A DNA stretch of 22,206 nt from IMG/VR virus record IMGVR_UViG_3300037517_000870, positions 1 to 22,206 of that record. One strand, given 5' to 3'. The DNA comes from a virus. Under the pieces are notes generated by a model. That model was given only the letters and a program-made list of their open reading frames with translations. It was not told the origin of the DNA and did no database searches. The position numbers were made by a program, and so were the translations under genes. Positions 1,893 to 19,985 of this stretch are shown here, in pieces. The stretch's first letter is position 1; each line of letters begins with the position of its first letter.

Positions 1893-3095
1893 ATGGCAAA
1901 TAACATTCTTACGATTGACATGATCACGAGGAAGGCTCTCGAAATCCTCGAAAACAACCTAGTGATCACTCGAAACGTGAATCGTCAATATGACGACTCG
2001 TTCGCGCAGGAAGGCGCCAAGATTGGTACGACCCTTCGTATCCGTCTGCCGGACCGCGCGCTGGTGACCGATGGTGCTGCGCTGCAAGTGCAGGACGACA
2101 ATGAGCAGTTCACCACGCTCACCGTCTCTAGCCAGAAGCACATCGGCATCAACTTCACGACTGCTGAACTCACCATGCAGCTCGACGACTTCGCCGAGCG
2201 TGTGTTGAAGCCTCGGGTCAGTCAGTTGGCCTCCAGCATCGACGCCGATGTGGCGAACTCCTACCAAGGCATTTTTGCCTCGGTTGGCACGCCTGGCACC
2301 GTTCCGTCGACCAGCCTGGTGCTGCTCCAAGGTCAGCAGAAGCTGAACGAGGCCGCCGCGCCAATGAGCCCGCGCTACGCCACCGTTAACCCGGCTGCCA
2401 ACGCCGGTCTGGTTGAGGGCATGAAGGGCTTGTTCAACCCGGTGTCGACCATCAGCCGTCAGTTTAAGTCGGGCCTGATGGGCGAAGGCATTCTGGGTTA
2501 CGACGAGATGGCAATGTCGCAGTCGATCAAGCAGCACACGACCGGCACCCGTACTGGCGCGCACACGGTGACCTCCACCGTCAGCACGCAGGGCGCGACG
2601 ACCATCGCAATCACCGGCACCGGCACGCAGACCATCAAAAAAGGTGACGTGTTCACCGTTGCGAACGTCTATGCGGTCAATCCGCAAACCCGTGAGTCGA
2701 CTGGTGCTCTTCAGCAGTTCGTAGCGACCGCCGATGCTGTTGCGGTGGCGGGTGCGTACACGGTCAGCGTCAGCCCGGCGATCTACACCTCCGGTCAGGC
2801 TCTGGCAACCGTGGACTCGTTCCCGCAGGCAACTGCAACTGTCACCTTCTTGGGCAGCGCCAGCACCCAGTACCCGCAGAACCTGCTCTATCACAAAGAC
2901 GCAATCGCGTTTGCAACCGCTGACCTTGTGATGCCGCAGGGCGTGGACATGGCGAGCCGCCAAGTTCACAACGGGATCTCCATGCGGATCGTGCGCCAGT
3001 ACGACATCAACAACGACAGGATGCCCTGCCGTATTGACGTCCTCTACGGCTACTCGGTCATTCGTCCGCAACTCGCTTGCCGTATGTGGGGTTAA
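1893..3095 (+). CDS. Major capsid protein, P22 coat protein family
   Basis: 400 residues, against 430 for P22 gp5. The start is well set by AAGGAG 7 nt before ATG 1893. The N-terminus (MANNILTIDMITRKALEILENNL) and the following RIRLPDRALVTDGA segment fit the P22-type coat family, which has the HK97 fold. Residues ~220-320 form a Thr/Ala/Gly-rich beta insertion (GDVFTVANVYAVNPQT, ATVTFLGSAS), as expected for the inserted I-domain of P22 coat. The C-terminus (RIDVLYGYSVIRPQLACRMWG) is also typical. It forms the icosahedral shell together with the scaffold encoded just upstream. This is one of the firmest assignments in the window. Confidence 0.93.
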   Translation: MANNILTIDMITRKALEILENNLVITRNVNRQYDDSFAQEGAKIGTTLRIRLPDRALVTDGAALQVQDDNEQFTTLTVSSQKHIGINFTTAELTMQLDDFAERVLKPRVSQLASSIDADVANSYQGIFASVGTPGTVPSTSLVLLQGQQKLNEAAAPMSPRYATVNPAANAGLVEGMKGLFNPVSTISRQFKSGLMGEGILGYDEMAMSQSIKQHTTGTRTGAHTVTSTVSTQGATTIAITGTGTQTIKKGDVFTVANVYAVNPQTRESTGALQQFVATADAVAVAGAYTVSVSPAIYTSGQALATVDSFPQATATVTFLGSASTQYPQNLLYHKDAIAFATADLVMPQGVDMASRQVHNGISMRIVRQYDINNDRMPCRIDVLYGYSVIRPQLACRMWG

Positions 3096-3119
3096 ACCCT
3101 TTCTGTAAAGGAACAAATC

Positions 3120-3527
3120 ATGGCTCTTTCTAATGGTGCAGGCGGCTATCAGGTCGGCGCTGGCAATCGTGCAGAAACCACGATGGGCTATGCGGACACA
3201 CCGCAAACCGCAACTTCCACGGCGACCCTGACCGCCGCCCAGATTTTGGGCGGTATGCTGGTAGCCAACCCTTCCACTTCTGCTGCAACCTACACGCTGC
3301 CGACCGCTGCTCTGATTGATACGGCACTGCCCAACGCTACTGTTGGCAGTACGTTTGATCTGAACTTGGTCAACATCGGTACGTCAAGCGGCACCGTCAC
3401 GTTAGCTACGGCGACTGGCATCACAGATGGCGGCAACGCCTTTGTTGTGGTAGCCATCACCTCAAGCGCAGCGTTTCGGTTCCGCAAGACCGCAGAGGGT
3501 GCGTACACGGTCTACAAGATTGCCTAA
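3120..3527 (+). CDS. Head-associated beta-rich protein (putative decoration protein)
   Basis: 135 residues. AAAGGA precedes ATG 3120 by ~8 nt. The sequence is rich in Thr, Ala, Ser and Gly with predicted beta strands. It includes LTAAQILGGMLVANPST, YTLPTAALID and VGSTFDLNLVNIGTSSGTVTL, a pattern seen in small proteins encoded right after phage coat genes and in some fibres. I infer a capsid surface or decoration role from its place directly after the coat gene and its own good SD, which suits high expression. No cysteines or membrane segment. It is possibly distantly related to the next gene; both share a short N-terminal region followed by one beta domain. Confidence 0.78.
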   Translation: MALSNGAGGYQVGAGNRAETTMGYADTPQTATSTATLTAAQILGGMLVANPSTSAATYTLPTAALIDTALPNATVGSTFDLNLVNIGTSSGTVTLATATGITDGGNAFVVVAITSSAAFRFRKTAEGAYTVYKIA

Positions 3528-3539
3528 AGGAGCTACGTC

Positions 3540-3899
3540 ATGCCGAATACTAAATCTGTTGGCGTGGCGTACTCCGATCCGGCGCTGACGTCGTTTTACC
3601 TCAACGCTCCGGTCACCAAGACCGCCAGCTTTACGCTGGGCGAAGATGAAAACTACGTCATCTGTAACGGCTCCGCTGCCAACGTCACTGTGACGTTGCC
3701 CAGCGGGGCTGCTTACATCGGACGGACCGTCTACCTCAAAAACTTGTCGGGCACTTACACGGTCATTTCCGCGTCGTCTAACGTCAAGCCGCGTACCTCA
3801 AACACTGCTGCCACGGCCATTTTGGCCGCGTCAGCGGGTGCTTGGGCAACGCTGGTTTGCGAAGATGGCACGAATTGGGTCGTTATGGCCGGCAACTGA
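3540..3899 (+). CDS. Beta-rich fibre-domain protein (putative head decoration or fibre)
   Basis: 119 residues. AAGGAG precedes ATG 3540 by ~7 nt. A short variable N-terminus is followed by one beta domain with NYVICNGSAANVTVTLPS, TVYLKNLSGTYTVISASSN, and an end reading AWATLVCEDGTNWVVMAGN. This pattern occurs as a repeated module in phage fibres and base-plate or head decorations. Here it stands alone as a small protein in the capsid gene group. A strong hairpin follows 5 nt after its stop, so it closes the highly expressed capsid block. Decoration is inferred; a small fibre is the alternative. Confidence 0.78.
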   Translation: MPNTKSVGVAYSDPALTSFYLNAPVTKTASFTLGEDENYVICNGSAANVTVTLPSGAAYIGRTVYLKNLSGTYTVISASSNVKPRTSNTAATAILAASAGAWATLVCEDGTNWVVMAGN

Positions 3900-3903
3900 T
3901 GGA

Positions 3904-3927
3904 CAGCGGGGGCTTCGGCCCCCGCTG
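3904..3927 (+). terminator. Perfect 10-bp UUCG hairpin after the capsid genes
   Basis: CAGCGGGGGC (3904-3913), loop TTCG (3914-3917), GCCCCCGCTG (3918-3927): ten perfect pairs, eight of them G-C, closed as C(UUCG)G, an exceptionally stable RNA hairpin. It starts 5 nt after the stop at 3899 and ends 8 nt before ATG 3935. No T-run follows, so it is not a canonical Rho-independent terminator. It may attenuate transcription, or it may be a 3' stabiliser or processing site that sets capsid expression above that of tail genes. Confidence 0.5.
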
Positions 3928-3934
3928 CATACAC

Positions 3935-4126
3935 ATGGCAATAATTTACCTGCGGCACCCCAACCACGGCGAAAAAGTCGCTACGATGGAGCTGGAGGCC
4001 GAACAGGATGAAAAGAATGGCTGGGTGCGGTATGATCCGGACGAGGCCGAGGCGCCTTCGACCAACGAGCTAGCCGCGCCTGCGCGGCGGCGTCGGAAGG
4101 ACACCGCTCATGCAGAGCTACTATGA
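3935..4126 (+). CDS. Small conserved phage protein (63 aa)
   Basis: 63 residues from ATG 3935 (MAIIYLRHPNHGEKVATMELEA). A longer frame from a TTG at 3842 would run through the end of the upstream gene and the hairpin, so it is rejected. The N-terminal (M)IYLRHP.HG.KVATME.EA pattern recurs in small proteins of P22-like environmental phages. The C-terminus is basic (APARRRRKDTAHAELL). Function unknown; a virion-associated or nucleic-acid-binding tail is possible from the basic end. There is no clear SD, because the hairpin occupies the upstream region. It overlaps the next gene by 17 nt. Confidence 0.7.
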   Translation: MAIIYLRHPNHGEKVATMELEAEQDEKNGWVRYDPDEAEAPSTNELAAPARRRRKDTAHAELL

Positions 4127-5240
4127 CATTGTCACAGACAGCGGCAACAACCCGATCAGCGGCGCGCTGGTCTACGTCTATGACTCGCTAGGCGCGCTCG
4201 CAACAATCTATTCCGATGATGGGCTGACGCTTCAGTCAAACCCCATCACGACGAACGCTTCCGGCGGCTGGATCTTCTACGCAGCCAACGGCATCTACAG
4301 CGCCGTCATCACCGCTGCTGGCTACACCAGCAAGACTATCACCGGCATCACGTTGAACGACCCGACACCCTCGCAGGGCGCCGTCGACATCCAAGAGTTC
4401 ACAACGGCCGGCACATCGACTTGGACGAAGCCGCTCGGCGCTCGGTACGTTGAGGTGCTGATGTACAGCGGCGGCTCTGGTGGTGGGTCTGGGCGGCGCA
4501 GAAGTGCATCTACTGTTAATTCAGCTTGGGGTGGCGGCGGCGGTGCTGCGGGCTCACGCATGGAGATTCGTGTTCCGGCCAGTGCTTTAAGTGCAACAGA
4601 AACGATAGTTGTCGGCGCTGGCGGCGCTGGGGGCGCGGCGCAAACGGTTGACGAAACTAATGGTAATGACGGTAACCCAGGCGCAAGCACTCAGTTTGGT
4701 TCTTTTACTGTCGCCAGTAGTTTTGGTGGCGGCGGTGGTGGAACGTCAGGCGGCGGCAGTGGTGGCGTAATGCGTCAACGGCTAGCAGAGTATCGATCTG
4801 GGTCTGTGTTTTACGCAGGTGCCGGTGGGTCTGGGACAGCTACCAATGGAAATCCGGGGGGAAGGGGTGGCTATGTGTCTGGTGGTGGTGGCGGTGGTAG
4901 TGGCTTTGGTGGCGGATCTACAGCGTCCGCGACTGGCGCAGCGGGTGGGCTAGGCGGCGCATTTTTTTCGGGCGATCCTGCAACGGCAACCGGCGGCGGC
5001 GGTGCTGCTGGAACCGCTGGCGGCAACGGCGGCGTAGGGGCTGACGGTCTGCTGGACTACTTTGTCGGCGGTTCCGGTGGCGGTTCTGGAGGCGGTACTG
5101 ACTTAGTAGCAGGCGCTGGCGGAAAAGGCGGCTACCCTAGCGGCGGTGGCGGTGGCGGCGCTGCTGCGTCTGGAGCGTTTGACTCCGGGGCAGGTGGCGA
5201 CGGTGGCGACGGGTTCGTGCGCGTGGTGACCTACCTATGA
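4110..5240 (+). CDS. Glycine-rich tail fibre / adhesin
   Basis: 376 residues. ATG 4110 follows GGAAGGA at ~9 nt. Residues 1-90 (YYDIVTDSGNNPISGALVYVY ... NGIYSAVITAAGYTSKTITG) are a beta-rich N-terminal domain like the virion-binding domains of phage fibres; the first 90 residues of the fibre at 8244 follow the same layout. From ~95 comes FTTAGTSTWTKPLGARYVEV, the start of a known glycine-rich phage domain. Residues ~120-370 contain many polyglycine runs (GGGGGAAGS, GGGGGGTSGGG, SGGGGGGSGFGGGS). Such runs can fold as stacked polyglycine-II helices, as in S16-type gp38 adhesins. The C-terminus GDGFVRVVTYL is typical. I infer receptor binding. It lies between the head genes and the tail adaptor. 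Confidence 0.82.
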   Translation: MQSYYDIVTDSGNNPISGALVYVYDSLGALATIYSDDGLTLQSNPITTNASGGWIFYAANGIYSAVITAAGYTSKTITGITLNDPTPSQGAVDIQEFTTAGTSTWTKPLGARYVEVLMYSGGSGGGSGRRRSASTVNSAWGGGGGAAGSRMEIRVPASALSATETIVVGAGGAGGAAQTVDETNGNDGNPGASTQFGSFTVASSFGGGGGGTSGGGSGGVMRQRLAEYRSGSVFYAGAGGSGTATNGNPGGRGGYVSGGGGGGSGFGGGSTASATGAAGGLGGAFFSGDPATATGGGGAAGTAGGNGGVGADGLLDYFVGGSGGGSGGGTDLVAGAGGKGGYPSGGGGGGAAASGAFDSGAGGDGGDGFVRVVTYL

Positions 5241-17034: not shown

Positions 17035-17538
17035 TCACTTACCAAGGACGCTGAACCAGCTTTGCGGCTGCGTCGGGGCTTTGGTTCGGGGTTTAGGGGC
17101 GGCTCGACTCTCCCCGTCTTCGATTCGGTAAACCCTGTTGGCGGGAACGGCCACGGGATCGGGCTGCGGTTTGGCGCGGGACTTGCGCGGCGCAGGCGGG
17201 GCGACCTCTTTGTCGACGAGGTGCCAGAGTTTGCGCCCTCGTTCCCCGAGTTTGAATTGGACACGGTTTTCCCTCTCCAGTTTTTTGATAGCGACCTGAG
17301 CCGCGTCAGTGCTGATACAGAAGTGACGGGCAATCGTCTCATACGACTGCCAGCCCTTGCGTTCTGACATGAACTTGATCAAGCGTTCTTCGGTCATGGT
17401 TCCAACCTCATAAAGGATGACCTCCTGCGTCTTGAAGCGAGCCTTGCAAGCGAGGCAGTTTCGTACCCTGAAAGCATCCGCATTCTTGCGCCATCGTTTG
17501 AAAGCCAACGCCGCGCCGCAGTTGGGGCAAGGCGTCAT
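17035..17538 (-). CDS. NrdR-like zinc ribbon plus winged-helix protein
   Basis: 167 residues from ATG 17538; AAGGAGA lies ~8 nt upstream inside the end of the preceding gene and the start overlaps that gene's TGA. Residues 4-40 are a zinc ribbon: CPNC (4-7) and CLAC (28-31), with FRVRNCLACKARFKTQE close to the NrdR pattern RRR.C..C..RF.T.E. Residues ~49-109 look like a winged helix (MTEERLIKFMSERKGW, YETIARHFCISTDAAQVAIK, KLWHLVDKE). The C-terminal ~55 residues are Pro/Arg/Lys-rich and probably disordered. NrdR's ATP-cone is absent. I infer a DNA-binding regulator; the target is unknown. Non-regulatory zinc proteins remain possible. Confidence 0.82.
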   Translation of the reverse strand: MTPCPNCGAALAFKRWRKNADAFRVRNCLACKARFKTQEVILYEVGTMTEERLIKFMSERKGWQSYETIARHFCISTDAAQVAIKKLERENRVQFKLGERGRKLWHLVDKEVAPPAPRKSRAKPQPDPVAVPANRVYRIEDGESRAAPKPRTKAPTQPQSWFSVLGK

Positions 17539-17888
17539 CCATTCTTCTCCTTCAGTTTTGCTTCGATGGCTCGGGCGAATTGGTACGGCAGCATCCGTTC
17601 GCCTTCGACGGACCCCTGCATCACGGCGGCGATCTCCTGATCCGTCAGCCCGACCCATTCACGTTGTGCTGCGGCATACAGCATTGTTCCGATTGGCAGC
17701 GCATCAACATCTTCTTGTTGATAGTCAAGGTCGTGCTTCTCACCTACACCGTAGCAAACCCACGCAACAGGCTCCTGCTTCTCTGCCTGTTCGATGGCGG
17801 TTCGGAGGGCGGCTCTTGCTGCGTTTACCTGCTCCCACGAATAAGCATCCAACGCCTCCAGCGCTTGTTTCATTGCTTCTATGCTCAT
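17535..17888 (-). CDS. Conserved phage protein, paralogue of the gene at 18183
   Basis: 117 residues from ATG 17888, with GGAGAAAGC directly upstream; a longer frame to 17939 would overlap the upstream gene. It starts MSIEAMKQALEALDAYSWEQ, has LRTAIEQAEKQEPVAW in the middle, and ends REWVGLTDQEI ... YQFARAIEAKLKEKN. This 'MKQALEAL / AIEQAE..EPVAW / LTD.EI / FARAIEAKLKEKN' layout is frequent in small early genes of environmental phages; function unknown. The 3' end encoding LKEKN doubles as the SD of the next gene. It is a clear duplicate of the gene two positions upstream. Confidence 0.82.
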   Translation of the reverse strand: MSIEAMKQALEALDAYSWEQVNAARAALRTAIEQAEKQEPVAWVCYGVGEKHDLDYQQEDVDALPIGTMLYAAAQREWVGLTDQEIAAVMQGSVEGERMLPYQFARAIEAKLKEKNG

Positions 17889-18190
17889 GCTTTCTCCACT
17901 TGTTCCAGTAGTTTGAGTTTCATACGCTCCAGAATCCACAAAACCTCGCCACCGTCTGCATAAGTCGATGCAAAATACTCCTGTCCGTCTATGTCGTACC
18001 CGGCAATCACAAACCCTTGCAACTTACCTTTTGTGTTTTCCAACACAAGGTCAGGATTCAGGTCTAATCTAGTAATACCGTTGAACAGGATGACATTGTT
18101 CACATCTGGCCTCATGTTTGCACCCCCATGTTTAGGTGAGGCGCAAGTCAGGCACTCTTTAGACGTTAATCCGTGTTCGCAATTAGGCAT
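17885..18190 (-). CDS. Small phage protein with N-terminal Cys/His cluster
   Basis: 101 residues from ATG 18190, preceded by AAGGAGAAG (which is also the coding end of the upstream gene). The N-terminus MPNCEHGLTSKECLTC has C4, H6, C13 and C16, a likely small zinc site common in tiny phage proteins. The rest (VNNVILFNGITRLDLNP, GFVIAGYDIDGQEYFAST, YADGGEVLWILERMKLKLLE) has strands and a terminal helix and is unfamiliar to me. An internal ATG (MRPDVNN) could give a shorter product without the Cys cluster. It sits between two duplicated genes. Function unknown. Confidence 0.78.
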   Translation of the reverse strand: MPNCEHGLTSKECLTCASPKHGGANMRPDVNNVILFNGITRLDLNPDLVLENTKGKLQGFVIAGYDIDGQEYFASTYADGGEVLWILERMKLKLLEQVEKA

Positions 18191-18542
18191 GGTTCTTCTC
18201 CTTCAGCTTTGCTTCGATAGCGCGGGCGAACTGATACCACGCACTTGCGGCTTCAAACTTGTAAAACTCTCTAGCAATCTCCTCATCCGTCAGCGGCTGG
18301 CGCTGTGCTGCGGGTGGGGTGGTGTAGAGGGGTCTAACGTCAGCTTGCGGTGGCTTGCGGTAATACAGGTCGGTCTTGTCGTACACACCCTGCCACGCCA
18401 CCGGCTCCTGCTCTGCCTGTTCGATGGCGGTGCGGAGGGCGGTGATGGCTGCGTCCTGATCTTGCTGAACCAGCGCCCCGACAATCTGCGGCCTTCCTCG
18501 CTCCAACGCCTCCAGCGCCTGCTTCATTGCGTCAAGGCTCAT
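18183..18542 (-). CDS. Conserved phage protein, paralogue of the gene at 17535
   Basis: 119 residues from ATG 18542, overlapping the previous stop (ATGA). It begins MSLDAMKQALEALERG, contains ALRTAIEQAEQEPVAW, then a linker with VRPLYTTPPAAQRQPLTDEE, and ends WYQFARAIEAKLKEKNHA. The EPVAW...PLYTTPP...LTDEEI order is the fuller form of the family; the shorter copy at 17535 has AAAQREWVGLTDQEI instead. DNA blocks of ~25 nt are nearly identical between the two copies (e.g. around 17785-17812 and 18415-18442). Function unknown. Confidence 0.82.
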   Translation of the reverse strand: MSLDAMKQALEALERGRPQIVGALVQQDQDAAITALRTAIEQAEQEPVAWQGVYDKTDLYYRKPPQADVRPLYTTPPAAQRQPLTDEEIAREFYKFEAASAWYQFARAIEAKLKEKNHA

Positions 18543-18880
18543 AACTTACCCCTTGCCCTAATTGCTTCGGGTACTGCGGTCACGCTGTGCGTATAGAACC
18601 GCGTCATTTTTTCAGCCACCTTCGCACACGCATCACGCTCTCGCTCTCTCACCTGCCACTCAAGTTCTTCGAGCAAGTCTTCTACTGTGTCGCCGTGCCC
18701 TGTCGCGTAGCTGAGTTCAATCATCCATGCAGCGACTTTGTTTCGTTCGGCAGCGGCGACGAGAGCGGCGAACCGCTTCAACGCATCTTCACCAAACACC
18801 CAAGCATTGGTGTTCCAGTCTTCCCGAGGAGACTGGTCTGCTGCCTCCTTCGCCATCCTAATGATGTCGTCGTCAGTCAT
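18539..18880 (-). CDS. Uncharacterised helical phage protein (113 aa)
   Basis: 113 residues from ATG 18880, with GGGAGA ~7 nt upstream. Begins MTDDDIIRMAKEAADQSPRE, then FGEDALKRFAALVAAAERNK and a helical charged segment (VEDLLEELEWQVRERERDAC). The 'DI..MA.EA ... L.RFA.LVAAAER' and 'RERDACAKVAE' motifs are widespread in small early phage proteins of no known function. Soluble; no membrane segment. The stop overlaps the start of the next gene by 4 nt. I do not assign a role. Confidence 0.82.
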   Translation of the reverse strand: MTDDDIIRMAKEAADQSPREDWNTNAWVFGEDALKRFAALVAAAERNKVAAWMIELSYATGHGDTVEDLLEELEWQVRERERDACAKVAEKMTRFYTHSVTAVPEAIRARGKL

Positions 18881-18881
18881 C

Positions 18882-19148
18882 TCAATTCTCCCTACTTTTT
18901 AGCTGCTCGTATGCGTGTCTGACTCTACGAAATGCATCGGCTTCAAGTTGGCGGACACGTTCAGCAGAAGAAACATCCAACTCGTCGGCGAGCTGCCGTA
19001 AAGTCAAAGCGTCTTTTTCGCTCAGCCATCGCGCTTCGAGAATTCGTCGCCTACGTGGCGAAAGACAATCAAGTATCTCCGGCACCTCTGCCACCATTTG
19101 CCGCAGTGCTTTCGCTATAAAGTAGTCAGCAATGTCTCGTACTCGCAC
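18882..19148 (-). CDS. Stand-alone sigma-70 family region 4 protein, RpoH-like
   Basis: 88 residues from GTG 19148, one base after the previous stop, with GGAG 6 nt upstream; a TTG at 19160 is a weaker alternative. Residues ~28-78 match sigma region 4: CLSPRRRRILEARWLSEKDA (4.1), then TLRQLADELDVSSAERVRQL and EADAFRRVRHA (4.2 helix-turn-helix). The segments ARWL.E, TL.ELAD and SAERVRQLE are those of RpoH (sigma-32). Compared with RpoH there is one extra residue (Ser60 or Ser61) in the helix-helix turn. Regions 1-3 are absent, so it cannot melt promoters alone. Likely binds -35-type DNA and/or the RNA polymerase beta-flap. The alphaCTD protein is encoded one gene upstream. Confidence 0.86.
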   Translation of the reverse strand: MRVRDIADYFIAKALRQMVAEVPEILDCLSPRRRRILEARWLSEKDALTLRQLADELDVSSAERVRQLEADAFRRVRHAYEQLKSREN

Positions 19149-19149
19149 G

Positions 19150-19383
19150 TCAGTCTCCAATCATCCGACCGATATTCGTCGGGTAGCCGATCAACGCTTT
19201 GATCTCAGGCGGGATCTTTGGCAAGGGGTGCCAGCCGATCCACCATTGATCTTTGCCGTCAAACCAACCGACCCCGGCTATACCACCCTTATTCAGCAGC
19301 AGGACTTTGGGACCGGCGGGGCAGGTGTCCATCGACCTCCAGAAGAGGTCTCCATCCGTTTCAGCCTCCTTGTTTGTCGTCAT
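19150..19383 (-). CDS. Small Trp-rich phage protein (77 aa)
   Basis: 77 residues from ATG 19383; GGGAGA lies ~8 nt upstream within the 3' end of the alphaCTD gene, which it overlaps by 23 nt. The core (FWRSMDTCPAGPKVLLLN, KGGIAGVGWFDGKDQWWIGW, HPLPKIPPEIKALIG) resembles small phage proteins of the DUF551-like 'W..MdtaP..G..vll ... W.PLP' type. Function unknown. It sits between the alphaCTD and sigma-region-4 genes; a functional link is possible but not shown. The overlap implies coupled translation. Confidence 0.75.
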   Translation of the reverse strand: MTTNKEAETDGDLFWRSMDTCPAGPKVLLLNKGGIAGVGWFDGKDQWWIGWHPLPKIPPEIKALIGYPTNIGRMIGD

Positions 19384-19831
19384 TCGGTTCGTCTCCCTTC
19401 AGGAACAAGCCACGCGACCGCAGCACCTCACGGATCTCATTCAAGGACTTCTTACCCATACCCGGGGCTCGGATGAGGTCCATTGCACGACGCTCACACA
19501 GCTGCTCGATGGTGTAGATACTCTCGGCGCGGAGGATGTTCTGTGCCCGCACGGTGAGATCGAGCTCGGTGAGAGGTGTGCCGTTCTTGGATTCTTCTTG
19601 TGCCTTTTTGTCTTGCTCTCTACGCCGTTCCAGCTCTTGAGCACGGTTCTCTTCTAACTTATCGAGTTCTTCCATGTGGTCGAGGATTTCCCGTCTTCTA
19701 TTCATCATCGCTCCCGCAACAGCGTATGCGCTGTTCGCCACTTGTTCTGCAGTAAGCATGTTCTTCTGGGGTGCGAGTGCTGCTGCCACACGTATCGCAA
19801 TCTCGTCCCACAGCTCCATTTCATTTGTCAT
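19361..19831 (-). CDS. RNA polymerase alphaCTD-like protein with coiled-coil N-terminus
   Basis: 156 residues from ATG 19831, with GGAG 7 nt upstream; it overlaps the previous gene by 11 nt. Residues 1-43 are helical, 44-83 strongly charged and likely coiled coil (DHMEELDKLEENRAQELERR). Residues 86-146 match the RNA polymerase alpha C-terminal domain: LTELDLTVRAQNILRAESIY, then APGMGKKSLNEIREVLRSRG. Against E. coli RpoA as I recall it, about half of ~59 positions agree. DNA-contact residues R265, N268, G296, K298, S299 and E302 are present as R95, N98, G126, K128, S129 and E132. Acidic D259 and E261, which face sigma region 4, are E89 and D91. The alpha N-terminal domain is missing, so it cannot replace alpha in the enzyme. 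Likely role: modifying host promoter recognition. Confidence 0.88.
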   Translation of the reverse strand: MTNEMELWDEIAIRVAAALAPQKNMLTAEQVANSAYAVAGAMMNRRREILDHMEELDKLEENRAQELERRREQDKKAQEESKNGTPLTELDLTVRAQNILRAESIYTIEQLCERRAMDLIRAPGMGKKSLNEIREVLRSRGLFLKGDEPNDDKQGG

Positions 19832-19985
19832 TTTGCGCTCCAATCTTTGCACGGGTGATCCTTGCTTCGACCACGATCTGGTCACACAGCTCCATGGCCT
19901 TCTTGAATTGCCCACTCAGCATCGCTTCATACATCTGCCGGGTGAGTTCTTTGATGGTGTGATGACCTTCTGCCCAATCATTCAT
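19821..19985 (-). CDS. Small helical phage protein (54 aa)
   Basis: 54 residues from ATG 19985, chosen because GGAG lies 6 nt upstream; the adjacent ATG at 19988 has only 3 nt spacing. It begins 8 nt inside the upstream gene and ends 11 nt inside the alphaCTD gene. Sequence MNDWAEGHHTIKELTRQMYE, then AMLSGQFKKAMELCDQIVVE, is almost entirely helical and amphipathic, like a TPR-type helical pair. A longer frame to a TTG at 20078 overlaps the upstream gene fully and is rejected. Function unknown; co-translation with the alphaCTD protein suggests a partner role, as inference. Confidence 0.7.
   Translation of the reverse strand: MNDWAEGHHTIKELTRQMYEAMLSGQFKKAMELCDQIVVEARITRAKIGAQNDK

Follow-up and report, generated by a model that had tools for sequence, protein, structure and literature searches.

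The environmental phage genome fragment analysed here (IMG/VR viral record IMGVR_UViG_3300037517_000870, 22,206 bases; hereafter the window) encodes copies of an RNA polymerase αCTD and of a σ region 4 as two small proteins of one operon. In RNA polymerase, R265 and adjacent residues let the αCTD recognise AT-rich UP DNA. The σ region 4 recognises the −35 element and also binds the β flap, and an αCTD placed next to the −35 element is in contact with it. We tentatively propose that both phage proteins act early in infection at this upstream, −35/UP half of promoters; the DNA binding and the timing are what we infer. Joint action of the two proteins is plausible. Other phages carry the same two domains fused in a single chain.

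Gene layout of the operon

The plus strand of the window holds structural and lysis genes, among them those for a major head protein (phrog_283), a head-closure protein (phrog_578), a DNA-ejection protein and an endolysin. On the minus strand lies an operon whose first gene encodes an SNF2-like helicase (phrog_62) and whose last, a Zn-ribbon/HTH gene, adjoins the endolysin gene (Table 1). The preliminary description had placed the αCTD and σ region 4 genes one gene apart, in overlapping genes on one strand, and both were found as placed. The uvr-like and αCTD genes overlap by 11 nt, the αCTD and 77-aa genes by 23 nt, and the σ-4 gene follows immediately. The two domains thus belong to separate genes here, with one gene between them, and not to a single-chain fusion. 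The ATG of the αCTD gene is preceded by a GGAG Shine-Dalgarno sequence. For the σ-4 gene, GTG is the likelier start because GGAG lies 6 nt upstream of it, whereas the alternative TTG overlaps that Shine-Dalgarno sequence. G+C content is ~0.47-0.62 in the cargo slot (17580-19960) versus ~0.60-0.72 in most helicase and structural genes. The sequence ATTGGAG, present at two gene junctions, was considered as a recombination linker and rejected (22 occurrences versus 22.5 expected).

Table 1. Features of the window and σ region 4/αCTD fusions in other phages.
Feature	Position	Strand	Description
αCTD gene	19361..19831	−	156 aa; ATG at 19831, stop at 19361
σ region 4 gene	18882..19148	−	88 aa from GTG (92 aa if TTG at 19160)
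77-aa gene, between αCTD and σ-4 genes	19150..19383	−	Independent cargo gene
54-aa UVR-motif-like helical protein	19821..19985	−	Belongs to the operon core in this phage clade
Zn-ribbon + winged-HTH protein	17035..17547	−	Final gene of the operon
Variable cargo slot, ~2.4 kb	17580..19960		Defined by blastn against L024 and L007; holds αCTD and σ-4 genes
18 single-chain fusions			L104, L135, L137, L158, L160, L165-L172, L174, L175, L181, L184, L210

The αCTD protein

Residues 75-138 of the αCTD protein match PF03118 (RNA_pol_A_CTD) with 57.4 bits, for a curated cut-off of 23.8 bits. Against full-length RpoA models the protein reaches at most 66 bits, with cut-offs of at least 227, and it has no αNTD, through which an α subunit dimerises and assembles the core. 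It comprises a helical hairpin (residues ~1-52) and a long charged helix (28-81), which serve as a phage carrier for the αCTD (86-147). The AlphaFold model has a pLDDT of 91, and 61 of its residues superpose on the E. coli αCTD within 0.5-0.7 Å. Structural matches include 3n97, in which αCTD and σ region 4 were solved side by side on UP/−35 DNA. The phage domain shares ~45-50% identity and its fold with the E. coli RpoA αCTD (1lb2, 3n4m, 3n97), from which it differs by a glycine at N294 and an isoleucine at C269. The acidic 261-type residues were reported earlier as kept, and they are: window residues E89, D91 and R95 align to E. coli D259, E261 and R265 (D259 to E, E261 to D). Equivalents of the whole UP-DNA contact set (R265, N268, G296, K298, S299 and E302) are also present.

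The σ region 4 protein

The product of the ORF at 19160-18882 matches PF04545 with 47.4 bits (cut-off 24.1 bits). Its closest solved relative is RpoH/σ32 (PDB match); the AlphaFold model has a pLDDT of 89 and its top Foldseek match is σ32 region 4. The protein shares with RpoH region 4 (8hkc) the fold, 46% identity to the E. coli RpoH segment, and the pattern A-E-R-Q at positions 584/585/588/589; R596 is retained as well. It differs from RpoH in lacking regions 1-3 and in having one additional residue in the HTH turn, and from σ70 in carrying D at position 593 and E at position 603 (K and R, respectively, in σ70). Only region 4 was matched, and the absent regions include region 2, with which a σ factor binds the core enzyme and recognises the −10 element. 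Both domain assignments are beyond chance, because the Pfam scores lie far above the cut-offs and the models are confident.

Since σ regions 2/3 and the αNTD are absent, neither protein can be a σ factor or an α subunit. With the rest of the polymerase subunits absent, the window proteins can therefore bind, compete or recruit, but not replace a subunit. A search of the window for an RpoH-type promoter found none. Comparison of the first σ-4 helix with the DYFAAKAM helix described below, from which it might have been copied, gave no significant match (E 5.5). Another type of free-standing region 4, a small σ-4-like protein containing '...GMTAERVRQIEEQFLRV...', is encoded at L271:618-995 (plus strand) and L272:1806-2129 (minus strand).

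Phage αCTD proteins as a family

The whole window αCTD protein found no relatives when used as a query, and profile scans alone worked. The first scan of viral contigs gave 46 contigs with αCTD proteins (41 distinct ORFs); a second scan, seeded with fusions, brought the set to 81 distinct αCTD proteins, phage-collection records included. R265 is invariant in 41/41 distinct phage αCTDs and E302 is present in 39/41, neither being demanded by the search pattern. They show no conservation of the 287 (activator) face.

One group is a hairpin-αCTD family of ~120-130 aa proteins on 27 contigs (L097-L132), with an N-terminal 'ELLDHLA...AYxxAExML.RR' hairpin. The window protein shares this hairpin (hhalign probability 95% over 44 columns; HMM E 5e-5 among 21,341 ORFs), which is a form of a common phage domain, 'TLRDYFAAKAM...AYxxADAMLKAR' (phrog_2201). 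No contig of the 27 carries a σ-4 match above the cut-off. The αCTD lies inside the phrog_2201 domain at L107:4815-5294 and L111:843-1322, and in front of it at L133:4180-4629. The 178-kb viral contig L203 holds two adjacent αCTD-like ORFs (2674-3267 and 3359-4243), the second a weak match (26 bits).

Cultured phages also encode proteins that match the αCTD: Bacillus phage Goe8 gp005 (L161:1959-2591) and Microbacterium phage Mazun gp26 (L163:2782-3207). Goe8 gp005 (vB_BmeM-Goe8, NC_048797, annotated 'RNA polymerase subunit alpha') is encoded fifth in the gene order of that phage. Like the window protein it is a phage αCTD-only protein (PF03118 78 bits), but its N-terminal domain differs from the window's, and the chain has no σ-4. 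Most of the INPHARED tblastn matches that we examined were host contigs filed as unverified phage and were set aside; Goe8, Mazun, L092 and the fusions L158/L160 were kept. Several phage-collection records labelled 'unverified phage' (L087, L088, L090, L091 and L159) are host DNA with a full rpoA. The α of a C. difficile 'plasmid' (L242) proved irrelevant, the record carrying a ribosomal-protein operon.

Judged from neighbouring ORFs, fused and αCTD-only genes lie in early or replication regions, and several αCTD homologues adjoin SSB, exonuclease or polymerase-like genes. Such neighbours would suit a helix-hairpin-helix module reused in replication or recombination and not in transcription, as would the HHH_5 score of the window protein (19.4 bits). 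We consider this reading highly improbable: the αCTD match is far stronger than that to HHH_5, αCTD-specific residues are retained, and in other phages the αCTD is fused to a domain that gives RNA polymerase its specificity.

Fusions of σ region 4 and αCTD

Eighteen of the 81 distinct phage αCTD proteins contain both σ region 4 and αCTD in a single chain (Table 1). Both scans and two records of the phage collection contributed to this set, in which every protein matches both families at E ≤0.001. Since fusions seeded the second scan, 18/81 should not be read as an unbiased frequency. The fusions of the first scan (L104, L135 and L137) are above both Pfam cut-offs. At the loci of the first scan, which was unbiased, σ-4 occurs in 3/41 distinct αCTD ORFs versus 0/1207 other ORFs (≥80 aa; Fisher p=3.3e-5). 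Used full-length as single queries, L135 and L137 matched themselves alone, and a genome-contig scan with the triple fusion gave one match, which was irrelevant.

In 11 fusions the σ-4 match is strong (≥40 bits), with a gap of 37-76 residues to the αCTD. Eight of these 11 are identical to σ70 at the −35-reading positions 584/585/588/589. R588 and Q589 are present in all 11, as is R265 of α, and R596 in 10/11. The acidic 261 face is found in 8/11 strong fusions versus 30/63 αCTD-only proteins, a difference that is not significant (p=0.19). Some fusions have an extra N-terminal HTH of Cro or MerR type (L167, L168, L174; L158, L160, L181, L210). In an αCTD tree built on 63 columns and poorly resolved, 17 fusions lie near the Firmicutes type and L104 near the proteobacterial type, with which the window αCTD is also placed. 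This split suggests that fusions may have arisen more than once.

The gene pair lies in a variable cargo slot

We fetched 80 relatives of the phage via its helicase and searched 50 of their records whole for PF03118 and PF04545. Neither family was found in any of the 50, which comprise the sister phages L024 and L007 and 48 others. Lack of co-occurrence in related phages had been named as one of two observations that would together refute the preliminary description, and it is what these relatives show. Up to ~19960 the window matches L024 at 97.6% and L007 at 92.7% identity (blastn), and the L024 flanks are 97.6% and 93.7% identical to it. Homology to both sisters ends near 19960 and restarts near 17580, close to the end of the operon, with different genes in between. 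Both genes therefore lie within one swapped stretch of 2.4 kb.

A second phage, L246, has an order syntenic with the window: p131, uvr-like, one small gene, αCTD and the 77-aa gene. Its αCTD (4694-5014, plus strand) is 40% identical to that of the window over 78 residues, with K at 261, and its N-terminus is zinc-ribbon-like (CPKC...CPAC) and not a hairpin. The 9-kb L246 contig contains no σ-4, so here an αCTD has filled the slot with no σ-4 beside it. Two records with the 77-aa gene (L271/L272; records of L245 and L264) encode a different small σ-4-like protein and no αCTD. The exact gene pair of the window was found in one genome only. Since the sisters and 48 further relatives have neither gene and L246 has the αCTD only, the two genes were brought together late, in a slot whose cargo varies.

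The neighbouring genes, earlier suggested as parts of one module with the pair, proved to be independent of it. The 54-aa gene is the last core gene after the helicase operon in 28/28 nearest relatives, all of them without αCTD or σ-4; its product scores 18.9 bits against UVR PF02151, under the 21.5 cut-off. A search with the 77-aa gene gave 28 loci, L246 among them. Nine helicase relatives without either domain carry this gene directly after the 54-aa gene, and among the relatives that have it, it adjoins an αCTD solely in L246 and a σ-4 in none. The gene at 17035 had been called NrdR-like, a third candidate regulator; we reject that name (Zn_ribbon_NrdR 12.6 versus 27.2 bits, no ATP-cone match). 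Its Zn-ribbon/HTH product scores 20.3 bits with HTH_36 (cut-off 25), and the gene is present in five relatives without αCTD or σ-4.

Such a slot raises the main rival to our proposal, namely that it holds two unrelated cargo regulators whose adjacency is coincidental and which do not act together. This is a distinct possibility. The slot is highly variable, L246 has an αCTD there without σ-4, L271/L272 have different σ-4 proteins without αCTD, and the hairpin-αCTD family never occurs with σ-4. However, both window genes lie inside the one swapped segment, and the fusions in other phages show that the two domains are useful jointly.

Discussion

If the two window proteins act at promoters as we propose, the αCTD on its helical stalk would bind AT-rich, UP-type DNA in the minor groove. 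The σ-4 protein would bind −35-type DNA and possibly, like σ region 4, the β flap of RNA polymerase. At the −35/UP part of a promoter they would help or displace the σ-4 and αCTD of the host enzyme itself, and the effect may be activation or shut-off. The 261 face may also bring the two proteins into contact; acidity at this position is not significantly tied to σ-4 in the fusions.

The preliminary description envisaged a composite of the two proteins at −35/UP. Its domains are real and the DNA-binding residues are kept, and with single-chain fusions recurring elsewhere it is reasonable to think of a composite that recognises −35/UP sequence. The gene pair does not recur in relatives, and the 261 face, although kept here, is not significantly linked to σ-4 in the fusions. 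Also counted against our proposal are the 27-contig hairpin family and L246, both without σ-4, as well as D593/E603 and the extra HTH-turn residue of the window σ-4.

Phage T4 takes over transcription by modifying or remodelling the host σ region 4 and αCTD through AsiA/MotA and Alt/ModA (PMC2988021). The window phage shares these two target surfaces, but it encodes copies of both parts whereas T4 alters those of the host, and homology was not found. No Pfam or PHROG match to an AsiA/MotA homologue appeared among the cargo proteins scanned from this record, a genome fragment. T4 likewise attacks R265 of the αCTD and σ region 4 (PMC2988021), which would fit host shut-off decoys, the αCTD occupying UP elements or host activators and the σ-4 the β flap or −35 element, so that host promoters fail and no phage promoter is recruited. 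Proteins with an intact R265 set that lack the αNTD and σ regions 1-3 could compete without substituting. We nevertheless think decoys improbable, as phage αCTDs do not conserve the 287 (activator) face and the Cro-type or MerR-type HTH of some fusions would be superfluous in a decoy.

Two further systems resemble the window proteins in part. Group 2 jumbo phages are described as encoding minimal single-HTH σ factors and gp33 (PMC7824862), and are thus alike in having a lone, phage-encoded σ-4-like HTH; these are different phages, and an αCTD partner is not mentioned for them in the part of that source considered here. The BREX protein PglW has a domain resembling the α-subunit CTD (PMC12839542). 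It is alike in placing an αCTD-like domain outside RpoA, but it is a host defence kinase and not a phage promoter factor.

We found no description of phage σ-4/αCTD fusions, or of the separate pair, in the open-access literature, although such an absence is weak evidence. More doubtfully, phages may repeatedly join copies of σ region 4 and αCTD, in one chain or as two co-encoded proteins, into "promoter-upstream readers" that would recognise the −35/UP half without the polymerase and would act as switches for a whole class of host or phage promoters.

Phage proteins known to take over transcription do so by modifying, covering or replacing polymerase parts. Combining σ-4 with αCTD looks like a recurrent means of controlling host transcription that has drawn little notice. 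If this is true, copying exactly the two domains that read the upstream promoter would be a strategy unlike known takeover. Such proteins would also supply a minimal tool, already made, for testing how far σ-4 and αCTD can recognise promoters without the enzyme.
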